IMG/VR virus record: IMGVR_UViG_3300036985_003484
Coordinates: 1-26,715 of that record
Reading direction: 5' to 3' (one strand)
DNA length: 26,715 nucleotides
Origin: a virus
Position 1 is the stretch's first letter; every line of letters starts with the position of its first letter. The position numbers and the translations under genes are program-made. Below the pieces are notes generated by a model, which saw nothing but the letters and a program-made list of their open reading frames with translations, was not told the DNA's origin and did not search any database. Positions 4,255 through 25,739 of the stretch are shown in pieces.

Positions 4255-4857
4255 TCAACACTTCTTACCACCCATCATTTTTTTCTTACCTGCTGCGGCC
4301 ATAGTTTTAAACTTAGACATGGCTCCACCTTTCTTTGCCATAAATTTATCTTGGCTCATAGGGTCATTTGTACCATTTTCAGAAACTGGTCTAAGTTTTG
4401 ATTTTTTTTGATTAGGCTCAGAGCTAGGTTTTGAAGCTGGTGTAGAGAGTTTAGGACCACCATTCTCATATTTAACACCCCCGGTTTTGTACTTCATCTT
4501 TTTACCAGCCATAGTAGCTTCACCCATAGCCCGGTTCATACGGCCGTTTACTTGCATACCTGTTTCAGTACCACCACCCATCATCATTTTTTTCATAGGA
4601 GGTTTAACACCAGGTGCCCCAAATTCCATCTCTTTAGATTCCTCCATAAATGATGGCATAGGTTTTTTCATTTTTGGCTTAGAGGTCTTGCCCCCTTTTT
4701 TATACATTGAGTTCATGTTTTCTTCTTTTTTAATTTTAGATTCTTGCTTAAGCATTTCTTTAGTAGGCTCTTTGCCAGAACCTTTGTTAGCTCTTATATT
4801 GTCCCAAAGTCCTCTTTTAGAGTATGACCCGTCTTTTCTTTTAATCAGCTTGCTCAT
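4255..4857 (-). CDS. Very basic Lys/Met/Gly-rich small virion-type protein, 200 aa
   Basis: This low-complexity protein is dominated by Lys, Met and Gly. It starts MSKLIKRKDGSYSKRGLWDN, followed by an IRANKGSGKEPTKEML segment. I know this 'KDGSYS.RGLWDNIR..KGSGK.PTK.ML' block as a recurrent N-terminus in phages of Bacteroidota. The remainder has methionine-lysine clusters (PPMKKMMMGGG), several short K-x-GG elements (YKKGGK, YKTGGVKYENGG, AKKGGA) and a C-terminal GGKKC. It is predicted to be largely disordered and strongly positive, which suits a DNA- or RNA-contacting or internal head protein, but that is inference. It overlaps the end of the upstream membrane-protein gene by 17 nt and uses ATG at 4857. 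The long open frame on the opposite strand (4487-4873) is a composition artefact of this gene. Confidence 0.65.
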   Translation of the reverse strand: MSKLIKRKDGSYSKRGLWDNIRANKGSGKEPTKEMLKQESKIKKEENMNSMYKKGGKTSKPKMKKPMPSFMEESKEMEFGAPGVKPPMKKMMMGGGTETGMQVNGRMNRAMGEATMAGKKMKYKTGGVKYENGGPKLSTPASKPSSEPNQKKSKLRPVSENGTNDPMSQDKFMAKKGGAMSKFKTMAAAGKKKMMGGKKC

Positions 4858-13932: not shown

Positions 13933-15354
13933 TTACGATGCAATACACTTAAGATCCAAGCTTGTATCGAAACGACGAAGTAAGATACCAGCAGTCTTAA
14001 GCATATGAACAGATGCACCGTCTATATCACTAGCACGGCTATCGTTGGAAGTAAATCCTTTAGGAACTACTGAACCAGCAACACACCAACGAAGTAACTC
14101 ACGACCTTTTTTATTGATCATTTGTAAGTTGTTTTCTCCGTCATAAGTTGACTGGTCAACGAATACCATACGGTAAGATTCAAGTGGAAGACCTGATACT
14201 GGGTGCTTCTGAGAAGCTTGAGCAACAGGACCATGATCAAACAAGTGAGACTTAACTACATTCACTGAATAACCATCAACGTGTTGGTAGCTAGTGAAGT
14301 AACCGGTGATTCCCAAGTTACGACCAGATCCAGTGATGAAGGTTGGTTGAGTTGTTTGTAAGAAAGAGTTAGCACCATAGTAAGACTTAAGAGCTTTGTC
14401 AAACTCACGAGCTCCACCAATACCAGTGTAAAGGGTAACTTGCTTGTCTGTAGCATCAGTCATACCATAGAACAAATCTCCAATTGTTTCTTCAAGTTTA
14501 GTTTGAGTCAACGTAGAGTAAGTGTCTTTGTTGATGATTTGCTCAAGAAGACCAGGACCTGAAATTACTGGTTGTCCGTTCTCATCCAACATGGTAGAAA
14601 TACCAGATGCATCGTGAGTTTTTTGACCGTACCAGTAGTACATTTCACACTCTTCTTTGAACTTCAACATGTGACGGTACTCTTCGTAATCCATCCACAA
14701 TTTAGTCTTGCTACCTTCTTTCAAAGGAAGTTCGAATTGTGCAACGTAATCTTTAGCATTTCCAGAGAAGTGGTAAGATTTACGGATAGTTCCAATTTTA
14801 GAACGAACTAAACCTGGAGCAGTCCAGTTAGAAGCATTTCCACGAGAGAAATCCACTCCAACGTTAGCATACAATTGACCCCAAAGAGCACCAGCAACTA
14901 CATCGTTAGCAGGAACGTTAGCAGTGTCAGGAGATACAATTTTCAAAGTATACTTCCAACCGTTTCCGTCTGCAATCGGCTCAGCCATGATACGTGCCAA
15001 TACACCTGATTGAGAAACAAGAGTGTAAGGGAATACAAACCATTTGTCTGGGAAAGTTAAGTAGAAAGGAGCTCCACCTGCACCAGCTGCTGCGGCCAAT
15101 CCAGTAACTACCGGACGAACATTAATTTCGTGTGTTTTAACACGGTACTCATACTCGAAACGATCGATAGATTTAGTGTTTCCAACACCTTCTGTTAAGA
15201 AAGATAATGGGAACTTTTTCTCTTCACGACCGGCTAGGTGAGTGATGATAGGAGATAACTCCTCTGGACGTTCCATAAGTGCATTAACCAACGAGTTAGT
15301 GTCGGTCATCTGACTATCGTTATAGTACGTCTTTAAAACTTGCATTACTGACAT
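13933..15354 (-). CDS. Major capsid protein (crAss-like, HK97 fold expected), 473 aa
   Basis: The length (473 aa), position (immediately after an acidic scaffold candidate and before a strong terminator) and sequence pattern identify this as the MCP. Visible stretches are an N-terminal helical region (TNSLVNALMERPEEL), RFEYEYRVKTHEINVRPVV, the central KTKLWMDYEEYRHMLKFKEE helix with a YYWYGQKTHDASG stretch, TLYTGIGGAREFDKALKSYY, and an ELLRWCVAGSVVPKGF segment near the C-terminus. In crAss-like MCPs I recall the same 'GP.LLEQI', 'TG.GG..EFD.A', 'F......G.' arrangement. The protein should form the icosahedral shell. There is no obvious prohead protease target or delta-domain; scaffolding is by the separate upstream gene. 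The leader carries a TAACTTTA box 13 nt before the ATG. Confidence 0.88.
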   Translation of the reverse strand: MSVMQVLKTYYNDSQMTDTNSLVNALMERPEELSPIITHLAGREEKKFPLSFLTEGVGNTKSIDRFEYEYRVKTHEINVRPVVTGLAAAAGAGGAPFYLTFPDKWFVFPYTLVSQSGVLARIMAEPIADGNGWKYTLKIVSPDTANVPANDVVAGALWGQLYANVGVDFSRGNASNWTAPGLVRSKIGTIRKSYHFSGNAKDYVAQFELPLKEGSKTKLWMDYEEYRHMLKFKEECEMYYWYGQKTHDASGISTMLDENGQPVISGPGLLEQIINKDTYSTLTQTKLEETIGDLFYGMTDATDKQVTLYTGIGGAREFDKALKSYYGANSFLQTTQPTFITGSGRNLGITGYFTSYQHVDGYSVNVVKSHLFDHGPVAQASQKHPVSGLPLESYRMVFVDQSTYDGENNLQMINKKGRELLRWCVAGSVVPKGFTSNDSRASDIDGASVHMLKTAGILLRRFDTSLDLKCIAS

Positions 15355-15382: not shown

Positions 15383-16510
15383 TTATTTTTCAAACAGCCT
15401 CTTTACATCCAGTTGGTCTGGATCAAATGTTTTTATTTTACCTTTCTCAACCTTTCCAAAGTTTTTAACTCTTTCTTGGTTGCTTTGTATTTTTTGTCTT
15501 AAGTTTTGAGCACTTGCTGATTTAACTTTTGTTGAGATAATATCACTCAACTCAAGCTTCTTATACATCAAGTAGTCTAATGCTAATTTTGCATCCATTT
15601 CTGCAGAAGCATAGTCAACGTCTCTTTTAGTACGTCCTTGCTTATCTACAGGCTTAGAGATGTAGTCAAAGAACTTTGCCTTTTCACGGTCTGGAATTTT
15701 AATCCCAGCAAATTCTTTTCCTTGCTCAATTGTAGTTGCAACACTCTCCCAAAACTCTTCAGTTTGTTGTTGTTGTTGCTTTTGAGTTTCTCTTTGACGA
15801 ACTACAATCTGTTCTTTCTCTCTAGCTTGTCCAGCAGCAAGATGTTTTTGGGCATTTAAAGCTCTGTCATATAATTTGCCAGAGTCTTCATAATCCTCAA
15901 TCATATCTTTGATGAAATCATCATCGTGCCCCTTCTCTCTTAAGTACTCAGTTAAGAATCCTTTTTGAGTTCTAGAGTCGTCTCTGTCAATTTCAATCTG
16001 ACCGTAATCCAATGAAGGATTGTAAGTCTGGAAGAATTTGTCAGGGTCTCCACCAGCTAGTACAAAGTCAAGGTGCTTTTGTACTGTAGGGAACTGCTCA
16101 AACAATGCCTGCAATTGATCTTCTGCAATCTCTTTAGCTACATCTTTAGTAAACTCTGCTAATCCTTCTTCAGTATCAGCATAATCTTTTTCTAATTCGT
16201 ACCCTAAAGCTTTTGCAATTGAATCTGTGATTGATTCTTCACCATTGTCCTCAACGTCATCTTCTTCATCATCAGAGTCATCAAAGACTCCTTTTTTAGA
16301 AGAACGTCTGGGAGCTGGTTCGTTACCATCATCGTCATCAGCATCATCTTCGTTAGTATCATCGATGTCGTCATCTTGATCTTCAAGATCGTCATCATTA
16401 TCAATGTTTTCAGCTTTATCCTCTTTTGGAGTAGCTGTCTCAAGTCCATCACCTATAAAGTCGTCGAAAGTGATGTCTGAGAAATCTAATTTGTCGTTTG
16501 GTTTACTCAT
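15383..16510 (-). CDS. Scaffold protein candidate, strongly acidic N-terminus, 375 aa
   Basis: The first 100 residues are dominated by Asp and Glu (stretches such as DDDLEDQDDDIDD and DDSDDEEDDVED). The middle and C-terminus are helical, with a Gln-rich run (KQQQQQTEEF, around residue 250) and a basic end (KGKIKTFDPDQLDVKRLFEK). An acidic disordered arm plus helical coils, encoded immediately before the MCP, is the typical layout of phage scaffolding proteins. No catalytic motif is seen. It starts at ATG 16510, 69 nt after the preceding gene, with a TACCTTTG box only 5 nt upstream of the ATG. The 82-aa open frame at 16204-16452 on the same strand is a shifted shadow of the acidic repeats. Confidence 0.7.
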   Translation of the reverse strand: MSKPNDKLDFSDITFDDFIGDGLETATPKEDKAENIDNDDDLEDQDDDIDDTNEDDADDDDGNEPAPRRSSKKGVFDDSDDEEDDVEDNGEESITDSIAKALGYELEKDYADTEEGLAEFTKDVAKEIAEDQLQALFEQFPTVQKHLDFVLAGGDPDKFFQTYNPSLDYGQIEIDRDDSRTQKGFLTEYLREKGHDDDFIKDMIEDYEDSGKLYDRALNAQKHLAAGQAREKEQIVVRQRETQKQQQQQTEEFWESVATTIEQGKEFAGIKIPDREKAKFFDYISKPVDKQGRTKRDVDYASAEMDAKLALDYLMYKKLELSDIISTKVKSASAQNLRQKIQSNQERVKNFGKVEKGKIKTFDPDQLDVKRLFEK

Positions 16511-16570: not shown

Positions 16571-16587
16571 TTTATTATATCACACTC
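16571..16587 (-). promoter_or_regulatory. TATAAT-containing 17-nt element before the scaffold gene
   Basis: On the minus strand GAGTGTGATATAATAAA spans the TGA stop of the 837-aa gene. It differs in one base from the element before the portal gene. Its partial overlap with coding sequence argues that the similarity could be constrained by a promoter or processing signal rather than by the protein. Confidence 0.4.
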
Positions 16588-19093
16588 GTCGTTTTCTGCC
16601 TACACAAGTGTAGCACACTGGGCCCCCTAATTTTTTAGAAGTAGTGATAGGTTTTTTAAGATTAATTGAATTAGTTACTGTTTTAAATCCTGTAGCATTT
16701 GGGTCTACATCATCAGCAAGTTGTAATATTTCAGGAGCTTGCATATCAGCTCCTTTAAATTGTGGAAATATTTCAAATGGTCTTACATCATGTGTAACAA
16801 ATGGTTTACCAGCTTTTTCCATTAATTTTGCTTGCTGATATATTTTATATTGATTTAAATTTTGAGTTTGTGCTAATTTTCCTGTAGGATTTCCTACAAG
16901 TGTCCATTTTTTAGCATACTCTTCTGGAGTAAATTTCCATATGTCTTGAATATGAGATGAAAATTTATTCGTAGCTGGATCATGAGTTAGAAACATAGTA
17001 TGTCCTGCAATATCTGTATTAGTGTAATGAGCACTTTTCATAGATATTGGAAGAGTTCCTTTTTCTTTTACTATTTTTTCAAAAGCTTGTTTAAGTTCCA
17101 TAGAACCTGCAGGTAATGCATCTAAATGAGATAGTGATGGATTTAAATGTGCCCATTTATCTACTGGTCGGTCAGGAGCAATGTCAAAAAAGTTCATATT
17201 TTCACTATCTTTTTTACTCATTTTTAATTTAAAATTATCTAATGGGCCATATTTTTCTGTATACTTTGTAAGACCTCTTTGAGGCACATTGGATACTTCA
17301 AAGTTTGCAGCATCTCCATAAATATATTGACGTAATGCATTTTGACCATCTTGACCATGCCCTCCTCCAGAGTAATTGCCCTGCACTCCTTTACCAGAAA
17401 TTGCTTGTTTAACTTGACTTAAAGATCTAGATTGTTGGCCTCCTTGTTTACCAACAGCATAAGCAGCATTTTTATAAGCTTTATTAATACCAGGTAATTT
17501 ATATAAAGGAATTCCAAGAGGACTAGTTACACTATTTGCAACTTTTGAAGCTAAAGCTTCTGCATAAACAGGTCCAAATAATGCTTTATTAGAAGCTACA
17601 TCATGAAGACCATTTACTAAAGGATGTGATGCAAATGATCTAACTGCTGGAGCCATTGCACCTGCTAAAGGTTTTATAACTGGGGCTGCTTCTAAAGCAT
17701 CCAGACCCATATTAATTAAACCTTCTTTAGTAGTCCATGAGTCAGCTCGTCCAACGTCTTGGGAAAGTCTATAAGCAGCATTTGCATAAAAAAAAGGATT
17801 AGCATATTGAGTTACATCTGAAAAGGCATCCCCGTCTTGTCTAATCCCATAATTACCTACGTTACCTTGAGGAACATAACCATACTTCATAGCATGTCCC
17901 GCAGCCTCTACTGGATTACTTAAAGCATAGTAAGCTTGATTAACTATTTTTTGAGCAGGGCTAGTATTGTTAGCGGATACTGTATCTCTACGTTTCATTG
18001 CTTCAGGTAAAGCATCATAAGCTGCTTGTGCATCTTTTTCTGCTTTTAACTCTTTCGTATTTGCAGGTATTTTTTGTGTAACATTTCTGTTAGTAGATTC
18101 TGCTACTGCTGTAGGTCTTGCAACTTTCCTTACATCTCCAACAAGATTTTGTGGAGTAGGAGTTGTTGCATTTTTATAATTAAGAATTGTTCTCCAATCT
18201 GGAGGATCTTGTTCTGTAAATCCACCAGTTGCAAAATAATCACCACTAGGTCCGTATAGTTCTTTATTTAATTTATCTATTGCAGCATCACCTGTAGATT
18301 TTATAACAGGATGTTTTCTAGTAGGTAACTGTACAGGTACATTTTTTAATTGAGGTTTTAAGTCTACCTGCTGCATTGGTAACGGTTTAATATCTATTGC
18401 TTCAGGATTACTTTCTTTTTCCAGTATAACCGGACTTGGTTGTCTAAATGCAAAACCTCTATTATTAGGCTGACCTAGATGTGAATACTCAAGTCCTATA
18501 CTTGGATCAAATTTAGTATTATATGCTTTAGCATTGTTGTAGGCCTGCTCGACAAGTTCATCATAGGTTTGATAAGCTGCTCTTTCTCCACTATCCTGGT
18601 ATATATCTTTTTGTTTATTATAATACTCTAGGTCTCTTAAATACTTTTTATAAGTAGGGTCATCTTTAGAGTATACATAGATAGGTTCAGTAGGAGGATT
18701 TTTTTCTTTAAACCCACCTTCTTTAAATATAGCCCTCCCCTGATTAGGCCCTGATTGATTTGATACGATTCCCATTGGAGCATCCTGTGATTGAATTCCA
18801 ATTGGTTGTGGGGGTTGTGGGGGTGTAAAGTTAGGGCTAGGAGTTGGGGAACTAGGAATAGCAGGCATTGCAACAGGTTGTGGTTGCATGTCCATTTGTG
18901 GCTGTTGTCCTCCTTGCTGTAATCCAGATTGCTGTGAAGCCATCTGTGACATTTGTTGATGTCTTTGCTGATCTTGAAACTCAGCAATTATATCTTTGCC
19001 TTGATCGTAGTTTGCATAGACATCTAAGATGCTGCCAGGATACCCAGCAGCTCTTGCTCTGTAAAGTAGCTCCTTCCTAGTAGCGTTATCCAT
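16580..19093 (-). CDS. Large internal virion/cargo protein candidate, 837 aa
   Basis: Layout: a helical start (MDNATRKELLYRARAAGYPG), a Gln/Pro/Met-rich disordered linker (residues about 40-110), a GGFKEKNPP element at 126-134 followed by IYVYSKDDPTYKKYLRDLEY, a second GGFTEQDPP element at 290-298, a region of Ala/Asn/Pro-rich helices (380-500), and a C-terminal domain of unknown fold (about 620-790, including KSAHYTNTDIAGHTMFLTHD). The end is GGPVCYTCVGRKRRV with a CxxC. I recall 'GG....NP....V.....D.....Y..SL..Y' elements from internal proteins of Bacteroidota phages. Position between portal and scaffold suits a protein packed into or around the head. No enzymatic motif is certain. It starts at ATG 19093, 5 nt after the previous stop. 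Confidence 0.7.
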   Translation of the reverse strand: MDNATRKELLYRARAAGYPGSILDVYANYDQGKDIIAEFQDQQRHQQMSQMASQQSGLQQGGQQPQMDMQPQPVAMPAIPSSPTPSPNFTPPQPPQPIGIQSQDAPMGIVSNQSGPNQGRAIFKEGGFKEKNPPTEPIYVYSKDDPTYKKYLRDLEYYNKQKDIYQDSGERAAYQTYDELVEQAYNNAKAYNTKFDPSIGLEYSHLGQPNNRGFAFRQPSPVILEKESNPEAIDIKPLPMQQVDLKPQLKNVPVQLPTRKHPVIKSTGDAAIDKLNKELYGPSGDYFATGGFTEQDPPDWRTILNYKNATTPTPQNLVGDVRKVARPTAVAESTNRNVTQKIPANTKELKAEKDAQAAYDALPEAMKRRDTVSANNTSPAQKIVNQAYYALSNPVEAAGHAMKYGYVPQGNVGNYGIRQDGDAFSDVTQYANPFFYANAAYRLSQDVGRADSWTTKEGLINMGLDALEAAPVIKPLAGAMAPAVRSFASHPLVNGLHDVASNKALFGPVYAEALASKVANSVTSPLGIPLYKLPGINKAYKNAAYAVGKQGGQQSRSLSQVKQAISGKGVQGNYSGGGHGQDGQNALRQYIYGDAANFEVSNVPQRGLTKYTEKYGPLDNFKLKMSKKDSENMNFFDIAPDRPVDKWAHLNPSLSHLDALPAGSMELKQAFEKIVKEKGTLPISMKSAHYTNTDIAGHTMFLTHDPATNKFSSHIQDIWKFTPEEYAKKWTLVGNPTGKLAQTQNLNQYKIYQQAKLMEKAGKPFVTHDVRPFEIFPQFKGADMQAPEILQLADDVDPNATGFKTVTNSINLKKPITTSKKLGGPVCYTCVGRKRRV

Positions 19094-19098
19094 AAGAT

Positions 19099-19524
19099 TT
19101 ATGACAAGAATTTAAGCTTATACTTAGCTGAGTTTAAAGTAGACTTGATAGTGTCTAAGTCGTTTATAATTTCTGAGTAAGTTATAGTGTCTTGTAACTT
19201 ACAAATTTTAGAATAAAGTTCTTCAATGTAACTAATTGCCTCTTTAACAGTAGTCATTTCAGGGGCACATACGTACGAGGGCATATCTGCAGGATAGCTT
19301 GGGATCTCTCCAGTAGCACCTTGATAACCTTCTGCAATGTCATCTGCATGTCCTGGTAGTGCATCGTACAAATCACCAAGGGCTTTGTGAGCTGCATAAG
19401 ATCCAGATCCTGTAATTGTTAAGTGTAGGATGTGAAACTTAGTTGCTGCATCCATTAATTCTACCACTAGTCCAGGTACGGTAACTTTACCTTTAGCTGA
19501 AACTACTTTGTCCATGTACTTCAT
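19099..19524 (-). CDS. DUF5856-like helical (ferritin-like) phage protein, 141 aa
   Basis: The protein opens MKYMDKVVSAKGKVTVPGLV and carries FHILHLTITGSGSYAAHKA followed by LGDLYDALPGHADDIAEGYQ. The pattern 'hHl.t.SyA.HKAlg.lYD.l....D.iaE.y.G' matches the DUF5856 family I know from phages, a four-helix ferritin/Dps-like fold. His residues near 31, 34 and 45 and acidic residues in the second helix could be metal ligands, as in Dps. The C-terminal third is coiled (VKEAISYIEELYSKICKLQD). Its ATG overlaps the portal stop as TAATG. It lies between the portal and a large internal virion candidate, so it may be a virion-associated or assembly protein. The biochemical role is undescribed as far as I know. 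Confidence 0.75.
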   Translation of the reverse strand: MKYMDKVVSAKGKVTVPGLVVELMDAATKFHILHLTITGSGSYAAHKALGDLYDALPGHADDIAEGYQGATGEIPSYPADMPSYVCAPEMTTVKEAISYIEELYSKICKLQDTITYSEIINDLDTIKSTLNSAKYKLKFLS

Positions 19525-21734
19525 TATTCTTTAATTTGTGAATTAGCTTTGATATCTAAATCTCTTTCTTTCAAAGCTATTTCTTGTTGTTTAATTTGAA
19601 AATCTTGCATCATCTTTTCAAGATTAGCCTGAGAGTTTTTATCAGTTGCTTCTGCTCCAATCAATGCTACCTCAATTTCAAGTTGACGATCTTTTTCTTT
19701 ATCAAGAGAAGCTTGTTGAATAGCTTGTTGTTGCACTTGAAGTTTAGCTTGCTCTTGTTGTTGTATAGCTTGATCTTGTGCCTGCTTAAGTTGCTCTTGA
19801 GCTTTTTCAGCTTGAATAATTTTATCTTTAATTTGACTTAGGCTATCTGACTCGTAGATTGCAATTGCTGCAGAAAGTGGAAGACCGTTCTGAACTGCTG
19901 CTTGAGCAAGTCCTTCAATCTTTTGTTTTTTATCTACATCTTTACCTGCATCAGATACAAATATTCCATACTCACTTTCCATATGAGTCATTGAATCTAT
20001 ATCTAATTCATCTACACTGCCATCAGGCATTACAAACGTCCCTTTTTTACCGTTAAGCCAAGCTTCTTTCGAATAGTCAAGTAGACCCTGTAATTCTCTC
20101 TGCTCAAAGTTAGAAAACTTACGGAAGATGTCTTCAGTAATGTGAGAAGATTGAACAATGGATTGCTGTGATGTGGCTTTTCCCTCATATGTTCCCATTT
20201 GCCCTTGTCTCTGTCTAGTTACCCCGGAAAGTTTTTCCCATTCGAGCATGATAGATTCAAGGAGAGTTAAGTATTGTGATATTGTCTTAATAGACATGTC
20301 TAACACTGACTGATGCTGAGGAGATAACTGAATTCCTTCTTTGTTATAGTCTACCCAAGCAATACCTGTACCTTCTACATAGTACATAAACTTATCCATG
20401 TCCCAGTTTTTAGGGATCATGTTAATATCAAATTGAGCTACGATATCTTTGCTTCGTGCAATTGCTAACTCAAGACGGTACTTGTAAATATTGTAGTTAA
20501 GTTGGTATGGGATACCAAGACTAATTAACGACACGTTCTGTGAGTTAATGTCTGAGTATTTTCTTCCATTAATTGGAAGTTTACAAATTGATGGATTATC
20601 TAAACTGTTTCTTTGGTTTTGATAAGGTCTCATCTTGATGTAATAAAGACCATCAATACGTGTACCCTCCCAAACTTCATTAACCCATTCCCACTCCATT
20701 TTAGCTCCAATTTCTTTTAACTCTTTTGGAAGTTTGTAAGTTTCTTCTACTTCAAATGTTTCTTCAGTTCCTGTATTTGGATCTACGTATGTAACAAATC
20801 CAATTCTTTTTCTTGATTTCCAATATACTGTTACAACTTCTACAAGACGATTACGATAAATGTTATCATCGGCTCCAGCTGCTTCTGCACGGTAAAGCAA
20901 GTAAGCTTGTGCTGCTGTATGTGTAGGAGTTTCTAACTGTAAGATTTGATCATCACTTAAATAGTCTCCAAGGTTGTCAATGATTGTTGAAGCATGTGCA
21001 TATTTTCTAAGTATAGCCCAGTCAGCATCTTCTACAAAGTCAATGTCTGGATCTTTATCAAAGTCAATGTCCAATGGATTGATTACTTCATAAAAAGGTT
21101 CGTTACGTCTTACTCCTTTGTGAGAGTAACATTCCCCAGTTACTAAGAAGTGGAAGAATTGCTTTTGAAGTTTATCATAAAACTCTGTGAAGTACATTAT
21201 GTAATTAAGAGCTGCTTGTCCTTTGATTGCTCTACTATCTGTGTAACTTCTATTGAACTCTTCTTGAATTTGTTTTGGGAGTGGCGGCTCTTCAGCTTCC
21301 ATCCCTTGTGGTAATTGCCCTTGTTTAGCTAACTCACTTAAGAATTTTGATTTAACATTTGTAAGTAAAAGATTTTTAAGTTTTTCTTCTTTAATGCTAA
21401 TCGAATCAGAGTTTTGTACTGTAACAGTAAACTCTAATGGACGTTTAGATTTTTCTCCCAAAAGAAGGTCAATAACTGGCTTAATGATAGGATAGTTCCT
21501 CATCTTAGATGGAAAGTTCTTTCTAGTCTTTCCATAAGGCTTAAGAACATAGTTGTAATCTTCTTCATCGATTACACCATTGTAATAATCGTAAAGAGAT
21601 TTAAGATATGTACGACGTTCACTAATACCAAACTTAGAAAGATTGATAAATGCATCTACACAATTCTTTTGCCATTGCTCATTCTTTTGAGATAATGGAA
21701 CACGTTGTTTTGGGATATGGGCTTGTCCGTACAT
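19524..21734 (-). CDS. Portal protein (crAss-like), 736 aa
   Basis: The portal forms the dodecameric DNA entry ring at the capsid vertex. It follows terL directly and has the expected features: an N-terminal region with LKSLYDYYNGVIDEEDYNYV, a RNYPIIKPVIDLLLGEKSKR segment, which is typical of crAss-like portals ('R.Y.I..P..D.L.GE...RP'), a central beta region, a long helical region (ISQYLTLLESIMLEWEKLSG, followed by VTRQRQGQMGTYEGKATSQQ), and an extended Gln-rich coiled-coil C-terminus (from about residue 650, with QLKQAQDQAIQQQEQAKLQV). The 736-aa length fits this family. ATG 21734 was used; the 90-nt leader contains a TATCTTTA box and a TATAAT element. Confidence 0.92.
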   Translation of the reverse strand: MYGQAHIPKQRVPLSQKNEQWQKNCVDAFINLSKFGISERRTYLKSLYDYYNGVIDEEDYNYVLKPYGKTRKNFPSKMRNYPIIKPVIDLLLGEKSKRPLEFTVTVQNSDSISIKEEKLKNLLLTNVKSKFLSELAKQGQLPQGMEAEEPPLPKQIQEEFNRSYTDSRAIKGQAALNYIMYFTEFYDKLQKQFFHFLVTGECYSHKGVRRNEPFYEVINPLDIDFDKDPDIDFVEDADWAILRKYAHASTIIDNLGDYLSDDQILQLETPTHTAAQAYLLYRAEAAGADDNIYRNRLVEVVTVYWKSRKRIGFVTYVDPNTGTEETFEVEETYKLPKELKEIGAKMEWEWVNEVWEGTRIDGLYYIKMRPYQNQRNSLDNPSICKLPINGRKYSDINSQNVSLISLGIPYQLNYNIYKYRLELAIARSKDIVAQFDINMIPKNWDMDKFMYYVEGTGIAWVDYNKEGIQLSPQHQSVLDMSIKTISQYLTLLESIMLEWEKLSGVTRQRQGQMGTYEGKATSQQSIVQSSHITEDIFRKFSNFEQRELQGLLDYSKEAWLNGKKGTFVMPDGSVDELDIDSMTHMESEYGIFVSDAGKDVDKKQKIEGLAQAAVQNGLPLSAAIAIYESDSLSQIKDKIIQAEKAQEQLKQAQDQAIQQQEQAKLQVQQQAIQQASLDKEKDRQLEIEVALIGAEATDKNSQANLEKMMQDFQIKQQEIALKERDLDIKANSQIKE

Positions 21735-25214: not shown

Positions 25215-25467
25215 CTTCGATAGGTTTATCGTTATTTAAAAGTTCTATTCTAGCTCGACCATCAATGATTCGAACTTTGCAAGATGTAGAGTATGAGTTA
25301 AATTCTTCTAAATGCTCGTCAATGTTTTCTCTTGTGATTAAGAAAGTCAAGAATACTTCAAGCTCTTTTGCAGCTTTTAGTATTCCTGTTCTTTCTATTT
25401 TTCCTGACGTTGCACTTAGTTTCAATAACTCATAGTCATCTATGGTCATTGTAACTGTTCCTGTCAT
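25201..25467 (-). CDS. Unknown small acidic protein, 88 aa
   Basis: The 88-aa product begins MTGTVTMTIDDYELLKLSAT and contains a helix (GILKAAKELEVFLTFLITRE) followed by a beta hairpin-type segment (SCKVRIIDGRARIELLN), then a very acidic tail (DKPIEDEED). The ATG at 25467 overlaps the GroES-like stop as ATGA; a second ATG at 25449 (MTIDDYELL) is an alternative. Translational coupling to both neighbours suggests a real gene. I recognise no family. Confidence 0.6.
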   Translation of the reverse strand: MTGTVTMTIDDYELLKLSATSGKIERTGILKAAKELEVFLTFLITRENIDEHLEEFNSYSTSCKVRIIDGRARIELLNNDKPIEDEED

Positions 25468-25739
25468 TTTACTATTCCAAGAATTGCCATTGATTCATTG
25501 ATCATAACGTATTCAGTATCGTTAAGTTCAACAATAACTCCATCACTTGATGGGTGGATGTAAACAACATCCCCAGTTTTGCATTTGCAATCTGGACCAG
25601 CTGCTAGTACGGGAAGTACGTTAGAACGAAGTGCTGATGCTGATCGATCTGATAAGATGATACCTGCATCTGTTACTTTTTTGTCCGGTTTTGGGACTAC
25701 CAACCAATCTCTTGTTGGTTCAAAATTTAAATTTTCCAT
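25464..25739 (-). CDS. GroES-like co-chaperonin, 91 aa
   Basis: The length and pattern match the Cpn10/GroES family: an N-terminal FEPTRDWLVVPKPDK strand, the mobile-loop region DAGIILSDRSASA at residues 24-36 with the GroEL-binding tripeptide as IIL (27-29), a VLAAGPDCKCKTGDVVYI turn where GroES has its hinge, and the C-terminal strand YVMINESMAILGIVK, equivalent to the GroES 'LIMSESDILAIVE' end. The roof-loop region is shorter than in E. coli. It should cap the host GroEL ring, as T4 gp31 does, to fold phage proteins such as the MCP. It is the first gene after a Bacteroidota-type promoter (25762-25792). Confidence 0.85.
   Translation of the reverse strand: MENLNFEPTRDWLVVPKPDKKVTDAGIILSDRSASALRSNVLPVLAAGPDCKCKTGDVVYIHPSSDGVIVELNDTEYVMINESMAILGIVK

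Follow-up and report, generated by a model that had tools for sequence, protein, structure and literature searches.

The window analysed here, the whole stretch of 26,715 nucleotides that constitutes a viral record (IMG/VR IMGVR_UViG_3300036985_003484), is by its marker genes part of a crAss-like phage (Crassvirales). Its proteins include, by family match, the capsid marker of Crassvirales and ring protein 1 (PF24228, E 3.2e-58), together with a P22-like portal (Table 1). On the minus strand the gene order is TerL (assigned from position and sequence), portal, a DUF5856 ferritin-like protein, an 837-residue protein designated P0001, an acidic 375-residue protein and the capsid protein, with ring and muzzle proteins further on; because the end of the window cuts the muzzle gene, the usual cargo genes that follow it are out of view. 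Two further features of the neighbourhood are recorded in their own right: the DUF5856 gene between the portal gene and P0001 has a similar ORF at the same place in a related contig, L003, and a phage-encoded GroES-like (Cpn10) protein lies at 25464-25739.

Table 1. Coordinates of P0001, its parts and the genes around it
Feature	Position	Strand	Basis
P0001, 837-aa mosaic protein, probable virion cargo/ejection protein	16580..19093	-	ORF; relatives L003 and L008 in same gene order
N-terminal segment, residues 1-39; possible head-packing part	18977..19093	-	Conserved in three close relatives
Gln/Pro-rich linker, residues 40-122, probably disordered	18728..18976	-	Composition
GG element 1, GGFKEKNPP, residues 126-134	18692..18718	-	Homology to L003/L008 stops at GGFK
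Residues 135-188 (PIYVYSKDDPTYKKYLRDLEYYNK), adjoining element 1 on its C-terminal side; resemblance to DPRLxAYxDSLxLY module, suggestive only	18530..18691	-	Profile, E 0.006
GG element 2, GGFTEQDPP, residues 290-298; missing from L003/L008	18200..18226	-	Sequence and relatives
Middle domain, predicted helical, residues 356-488; shared with 1418-aa protein of G001	17630..18028	-	Profile; helices from low-confidence model
C-terminal domain, residues 507-781, with conserved motifs DxAGH and QDIWKFxPxxY; shared with G002 1597-aa and MT835470 981-aa proteins	16751..17575	-	Sequence comparison
KKLGG element, CYTC and basic tail GRKRRV	16583..16633	-	Kept in L003 and L008
DUF5856, ferritin/Dps-like, 141 aa, neighbour of P0001	19099..19524	-	Family match
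Portal protein, neighbour	19524..21734	-	Matches crAss001 gp20, E 2.6e-81
Acidic 375-aa protein, possibly scaffold-like	15383..16510	-	Place and composition
Crassvirus major capsid protein, neighbour	13933..15354	-	Pfam PF23898, E 5.7e-83
Basic 200-aa protein: KRKDGSxSxRGLWDN module and several GG elements, including doubled form KYKTGGVKYENGGP	4255..4857	-	Sequence and module match

A first-pass annotation, made from the letters alone, had proposed an internal virion protein at this locus, carrying a duplicated glycine-glycine (GG) element and a C-terminal domain of no recognised fold that ends in CxxC and a basic tail. Translation of the ORF agrees with that description, both in the extent and minus-strand orientation of the gene and in the CYTC motif followed by GRKRRV at the end of the protein. 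Searches of P0001 against Pfam, PHROG, NCBIfam and PDB sequences gave no match (against the last, chance-level matches only, best E 0.55), and no hydrolase domain is recognisable in it with Pfam or NCBIfam, so that it lacks the feature expected of a virion peptidoglycan hydrolase. Structure predictions for residues 350-837 and 555-781 gave mean pLDDT values of 36 and 50, respectively, and fold searches with both models returned no match at E 0.001 or below; in view of these low-confidence models and empty searches we claim no fold for the C-terminal domain. The crAss_CARG1 domain (PF25725) of crassvirus cargo protein 1 (C1) has no match anywhere in the window at E up to 1, and on this ground P0001 is not the known C1. 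Its place beside the portal gene led us to consider it as a prohead protease, a candidate that was rejected: it matched none of the protease families, and other phages have the C-terminal domain at a different place.

The two copies of the GG element lie where the annotation had placed them, and a scan of the 26.7-kb record with a degenerate DNA version of the element hits these two sites and no others (reversed control, no matches). As a pair they form the top-scoring self-match in P0001; the score of the 9-mers was reached by 0.5% of 200 composition shuffles, and that of the 12-mers (FKEGGFKEKNPP/FATGGFTEQDPP) by none of 200. The motifs KTGGV and KKGGA also occur, as had been noted, in the basic 200-residue protein. 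Conservation of the full form GGFxExxPP, set beforehand as a test, gave the opposite outcome: L003 and L008 read FKTGGFKYEEGGP at the first site and lack the second entirely, the NPP/DPP half is kept in neither, and by this comparison the PP half is particular to the window phage. Moreover, GG as a dipeptide is not over-represented in the window overall, and a genome-wide GG signal was accordingly rejected. These two results, and the existence of only one pair, are what could be said for a chance resemblance between the copies; we regard that explanation as highly improbable, given the rank of the self-match, its shuffle frequency of at most 0.5%, and the fact that homology to relatives breaks exactly at the first copy. 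The repeat is therefore taken as real.

The nature of that break emerges from the proteins encoded by L003 and L008 (655 and 660 residues). Shared by all three proteins are residues 1-39, the linker as far as NQGRAIFK[T/E]GGFK, the middle domain, the C-terminal domain and the tail KKLGG-CYTCVGRKRRV, and a profile of residues 1-39 matches only these three. Immediately at NQGRAIFK[T/E]GGFK the homology ends and different modules follow. In L003 and L008 the interval between element 1 and the middle domain is occupied by a module beginning SVAENxELN..., which is present twice in a 1418-residue protein of the phage G001. In P0001 the corresponding residues 135-188 resemble a module with the pattern DPRLxAYxDSLxLY; since one of 300 shuffles scored about as high, this homology is left as suggestive.

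The middle and C-terminal domains also recur separately in other phages, in each case inside GG-punctuated proteins: the former in the 1418-residue protein of G001, the latter in proteins of 1597 residues (G002) and 981 residues (MT835470). A search of 84,980 genomes of bacteria and archaea gave no counterpart of the C-terminal domain. These comparisons show P0001 to be, at the level of sequence, a mosaic of separately inherited modules, with the first GG element exactly at one module boundary. The three proteins resemble P0001 in having GG elements between modules, and the genes for the first two each immediately follow a muzzle-like gene, a position that in crAss001 belongs to cargo proteins. 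The MT835470 protein carries a Glucosaminidase domain (PF01832), and the gene following that of the 1597-residue protein has an L-Ala-D-Glu-peptidase-like match. They differ from P0001 in that none of the three genes lies between portal and capsid genes, and the G002 and MT835470 proteins carry extra modules (DUF5872 or glucosaminidase) missing from P0001. Separately, we observed in L006 (5377-12272) that DUF5872 is split across two adjacent genes, its second part ending the 1597-residue protein and its first part beginning one of 696 residues; in marine phages, relatives of the second part stand alone.

To view the GG element as a class, 15 viral contigs were gathered by the module pattern DPRLxAYxDSLxLY, which itself contains no GG. 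In their ORFs the context of GG is biased toward Tyr at -3 (31 vs 10), Ala at -2 (42 vs 11) and Ile, Leu or Met at +3, single proteins contain up to 20 GGs, and a GG falls within 25 residues upstream of the module in 7 of 14 cases (2.5 expected, p 0.004). The GG-rich proteins of two contigs, L034 and L033, match PF25725, the portal-bound domain of C1, and the L034 protein was independently matched to gp45 of crAss001. Among nine annotated crass-like phages, the patterns [FYWM]-A-x-G-G or A-[FYW]-G-G occur 30 times in C1 proteins, compared with 1.7 after shuffling, counts that are not independent events because C1 proteins are related; the patterns are absent from C2 (the next gene) and from muzzle proteins. 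When 76 mosaic proteins were examined for dipeptides within about 5 residues of module edges, GG ranked first of 295 dipeptides (68 edges vs 27.3 expected, z 8.6; the runner-up, EM, z 4.0), an enrichment that speaks to junction position and not to function, since linkers of any kind also end BLAST alignments. Synonymous codons vary at GG elements much as elsewhere; the element is therefore kept as protein and not as a DNA site, which points to selection at the protein level, and a DNA-level recombination site was rejected. Together these sequence comparisons show GG elements to be markers of module edges in the mosaic proteins of crassviruses, the C1 cargo relatives of crAss001 gp45 among them. 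We found no description of the element in the literature searched, a search whose coverage left out most subscription journals.

Several arrangements seen in individual C1 genes may be listed here. In C1 of DAC15 (L051, 2957-5455) a GG-bracketed module (EGGGIHI...YCGGxVT...WNxAEGG), as read from GG contexts, apparently occurs twice in tandem. In NC_021806 (phi14:2) crAss_CARG1 appears to be split over the neighbouring genes g069 and g070 (60171-60323 and 61731-61919), the first part ending near a GG. In cr112_1 (L046, 3275-6324) an annotated endonuclease gene interrupts the C1 gene, whose second part starts near WNHAFGGWLNT.

P0001 itself shares with this class the position of a GG at the edge of a swapped module. 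Its local contexts, F-A-T-G-G at element 2 and F-K-E-G-G at element 1, fit the C1 context weakly: on a profile of cargo GG contexts, 15% and 28% of background GGs score as high as they do, and because of this weak fit the assignment of P0001 to the GG-punctuated class is made on module-edge position and not on motif. A broader proposal is that Phi-A-x-G-G-x-[ILV] could constitute a general crassvirus cargo code, read by a partner (a protease, or a site on portal or capsid) and determining where along an injected polyprotein cutting or gripping takes place as it is packaged and ejected, with P0001 as a variant bearing a new delivered domain. We hold this to be rather unlikely.

What GG elements might do can be approached through crAss001 gp45, which P0001 resembles as a crassvirus-encoded mosaic of small modules punctuated by GG, and from which it departs in the missing CARG1 domain, the absence of a strongly hydrophobic membrane-like segment and a different gene place; an internal virion role is shown for gp45, while P0001 is known here from its sequence. 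In the crAss001 virion, gp45 is stretched through the portal, with residues 425-552 resolved as one domain and about 420 Å between its tail and capsid parts bridged by 179 residues (PMC10172136). We located GGs at positions 427, 434 and 447 in the resolved domain, and at 263, 332, 373 and 391 in the connecting chain. By analogy, the simplest account would be that GG elements provide the hinges where a chain of small modules must be drawn out through portal and tail, and P0001 may be another such chain.

The first-pass annotation had instead suggested maturation cleavage sites or head-packing tags. Were the elements cleavage sites, a host or phage protease would cut the packaged precursor into modules, as in P22 gp7 or in the GG-X polyproteins of eukaryotic viruses. 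The location of GG elements at module edges agrees with this, as does the P22 ejection protein gp7, which is cut by host OpdA near its N-terminus to leave a mature end KGGKG (PMC8402733). The K-G-G element of gp7 is thus a processed site in an internal podovirus protein; the elements of P0001, unlike it, are internal and at most candidate sites. Several cargo-region ORFs in the structural region of the related MT835470 (L005) also share an N-terminal tag, K-[FYL]-Q-x-G-[GN] (MATKFQQGG, MSQAIRKYQTGG, INKIQKLQGGG, MKVIPKLQQGN), possibly a leader for packaging or for processing. Against cleavage stand the three GGs held within the resolved domain of gp45 in virions, the presence of up to 20 GGs in one protein, and the failure to find a Peptidase_S78 or ClpP family protein in 12 related records, some of which are fragments and which do not include the full genome of the window phage; a search for a C48 protease was uninformative because its control gave no match. 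Cleavage at GG elements is thus disfavoured, and we consider it unlikely.

Alternatively, the elements could be short tags with which the cargo docks on the portal or the inner face of the capsid and is thereby loaded, comparable to the targeting peptides of encapsulins. A short motif that is repeated, biased in its context and specific to cargo proteins would suit such a task, and GG recurs in the basic 200-residue protein and at the C-terminus of P0001 (KKLGG). Placement follows module edges, however, no binding partner for the putative tags was identified, and the conserved 39 N-terminal residues of P0001 are an equally good candidate for packaging; we judge docking quite unlikely.

We lean, with modest assurance, toward P0001 being a modular virion cargo (ejection) protein of a crAss-like phage, in which GG elements serve as hinges between modules. 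P0001 is placed among virion cargo proteins on indirect grounds, because the proteins that share its domains adjoin a muzzle gene or carry or adjoin wall-hydrolase modules. Counting against this reading are the missing C1 domain, the weak fit of its GG elements to cargo contexts, the borderline likeness to the DPRL module and the location of P0001 between portal and capsid genes rather than after the muzzle gene. Many phages keep assembly genes between their portal and capsid genes. P0001 might on that account be an assembly factor or effector that is never packaged, its GG elements being ordinary linkers, and the weak motif fit of these elements is compatible with such a role. Since its two main domains are shared with the wall-hydrolase-associated proteins, two of them muzzle-adjacent, a role outside the virion also appears quite unlikely. 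Thus the cargo or ejection part of the initial proposal is supported, indirectly, by the shared domains, the associated hydrolase modules and the reality of the GG feature in C1; its cleavage part is not supported.

As a cargo protein, P0001 would be packed in the capsid by way of its conserved N-terminal part and, at infection, threaded out through portal and tail. Its GG elements would act as flexible hinges between small folds, allowing the chain to be drawn out and modules to be exchanged with their neighbours undisturbed. The middle and C-terminal domains, because they are kept when the rest is swapped, would represent the delivered working part.

Crassviruses exceed all other viruses of the human gut in abundance, and the features described here would bear on the open question of how several megadaltons of their protein pass through a narrow tail. 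If swappable modules are marked by a junction element, delivered proteins that otherwise lack annotation could be parsed in a simple way, and two ideas become directly testable: threading aided by hinges, and cleavage during maturation.
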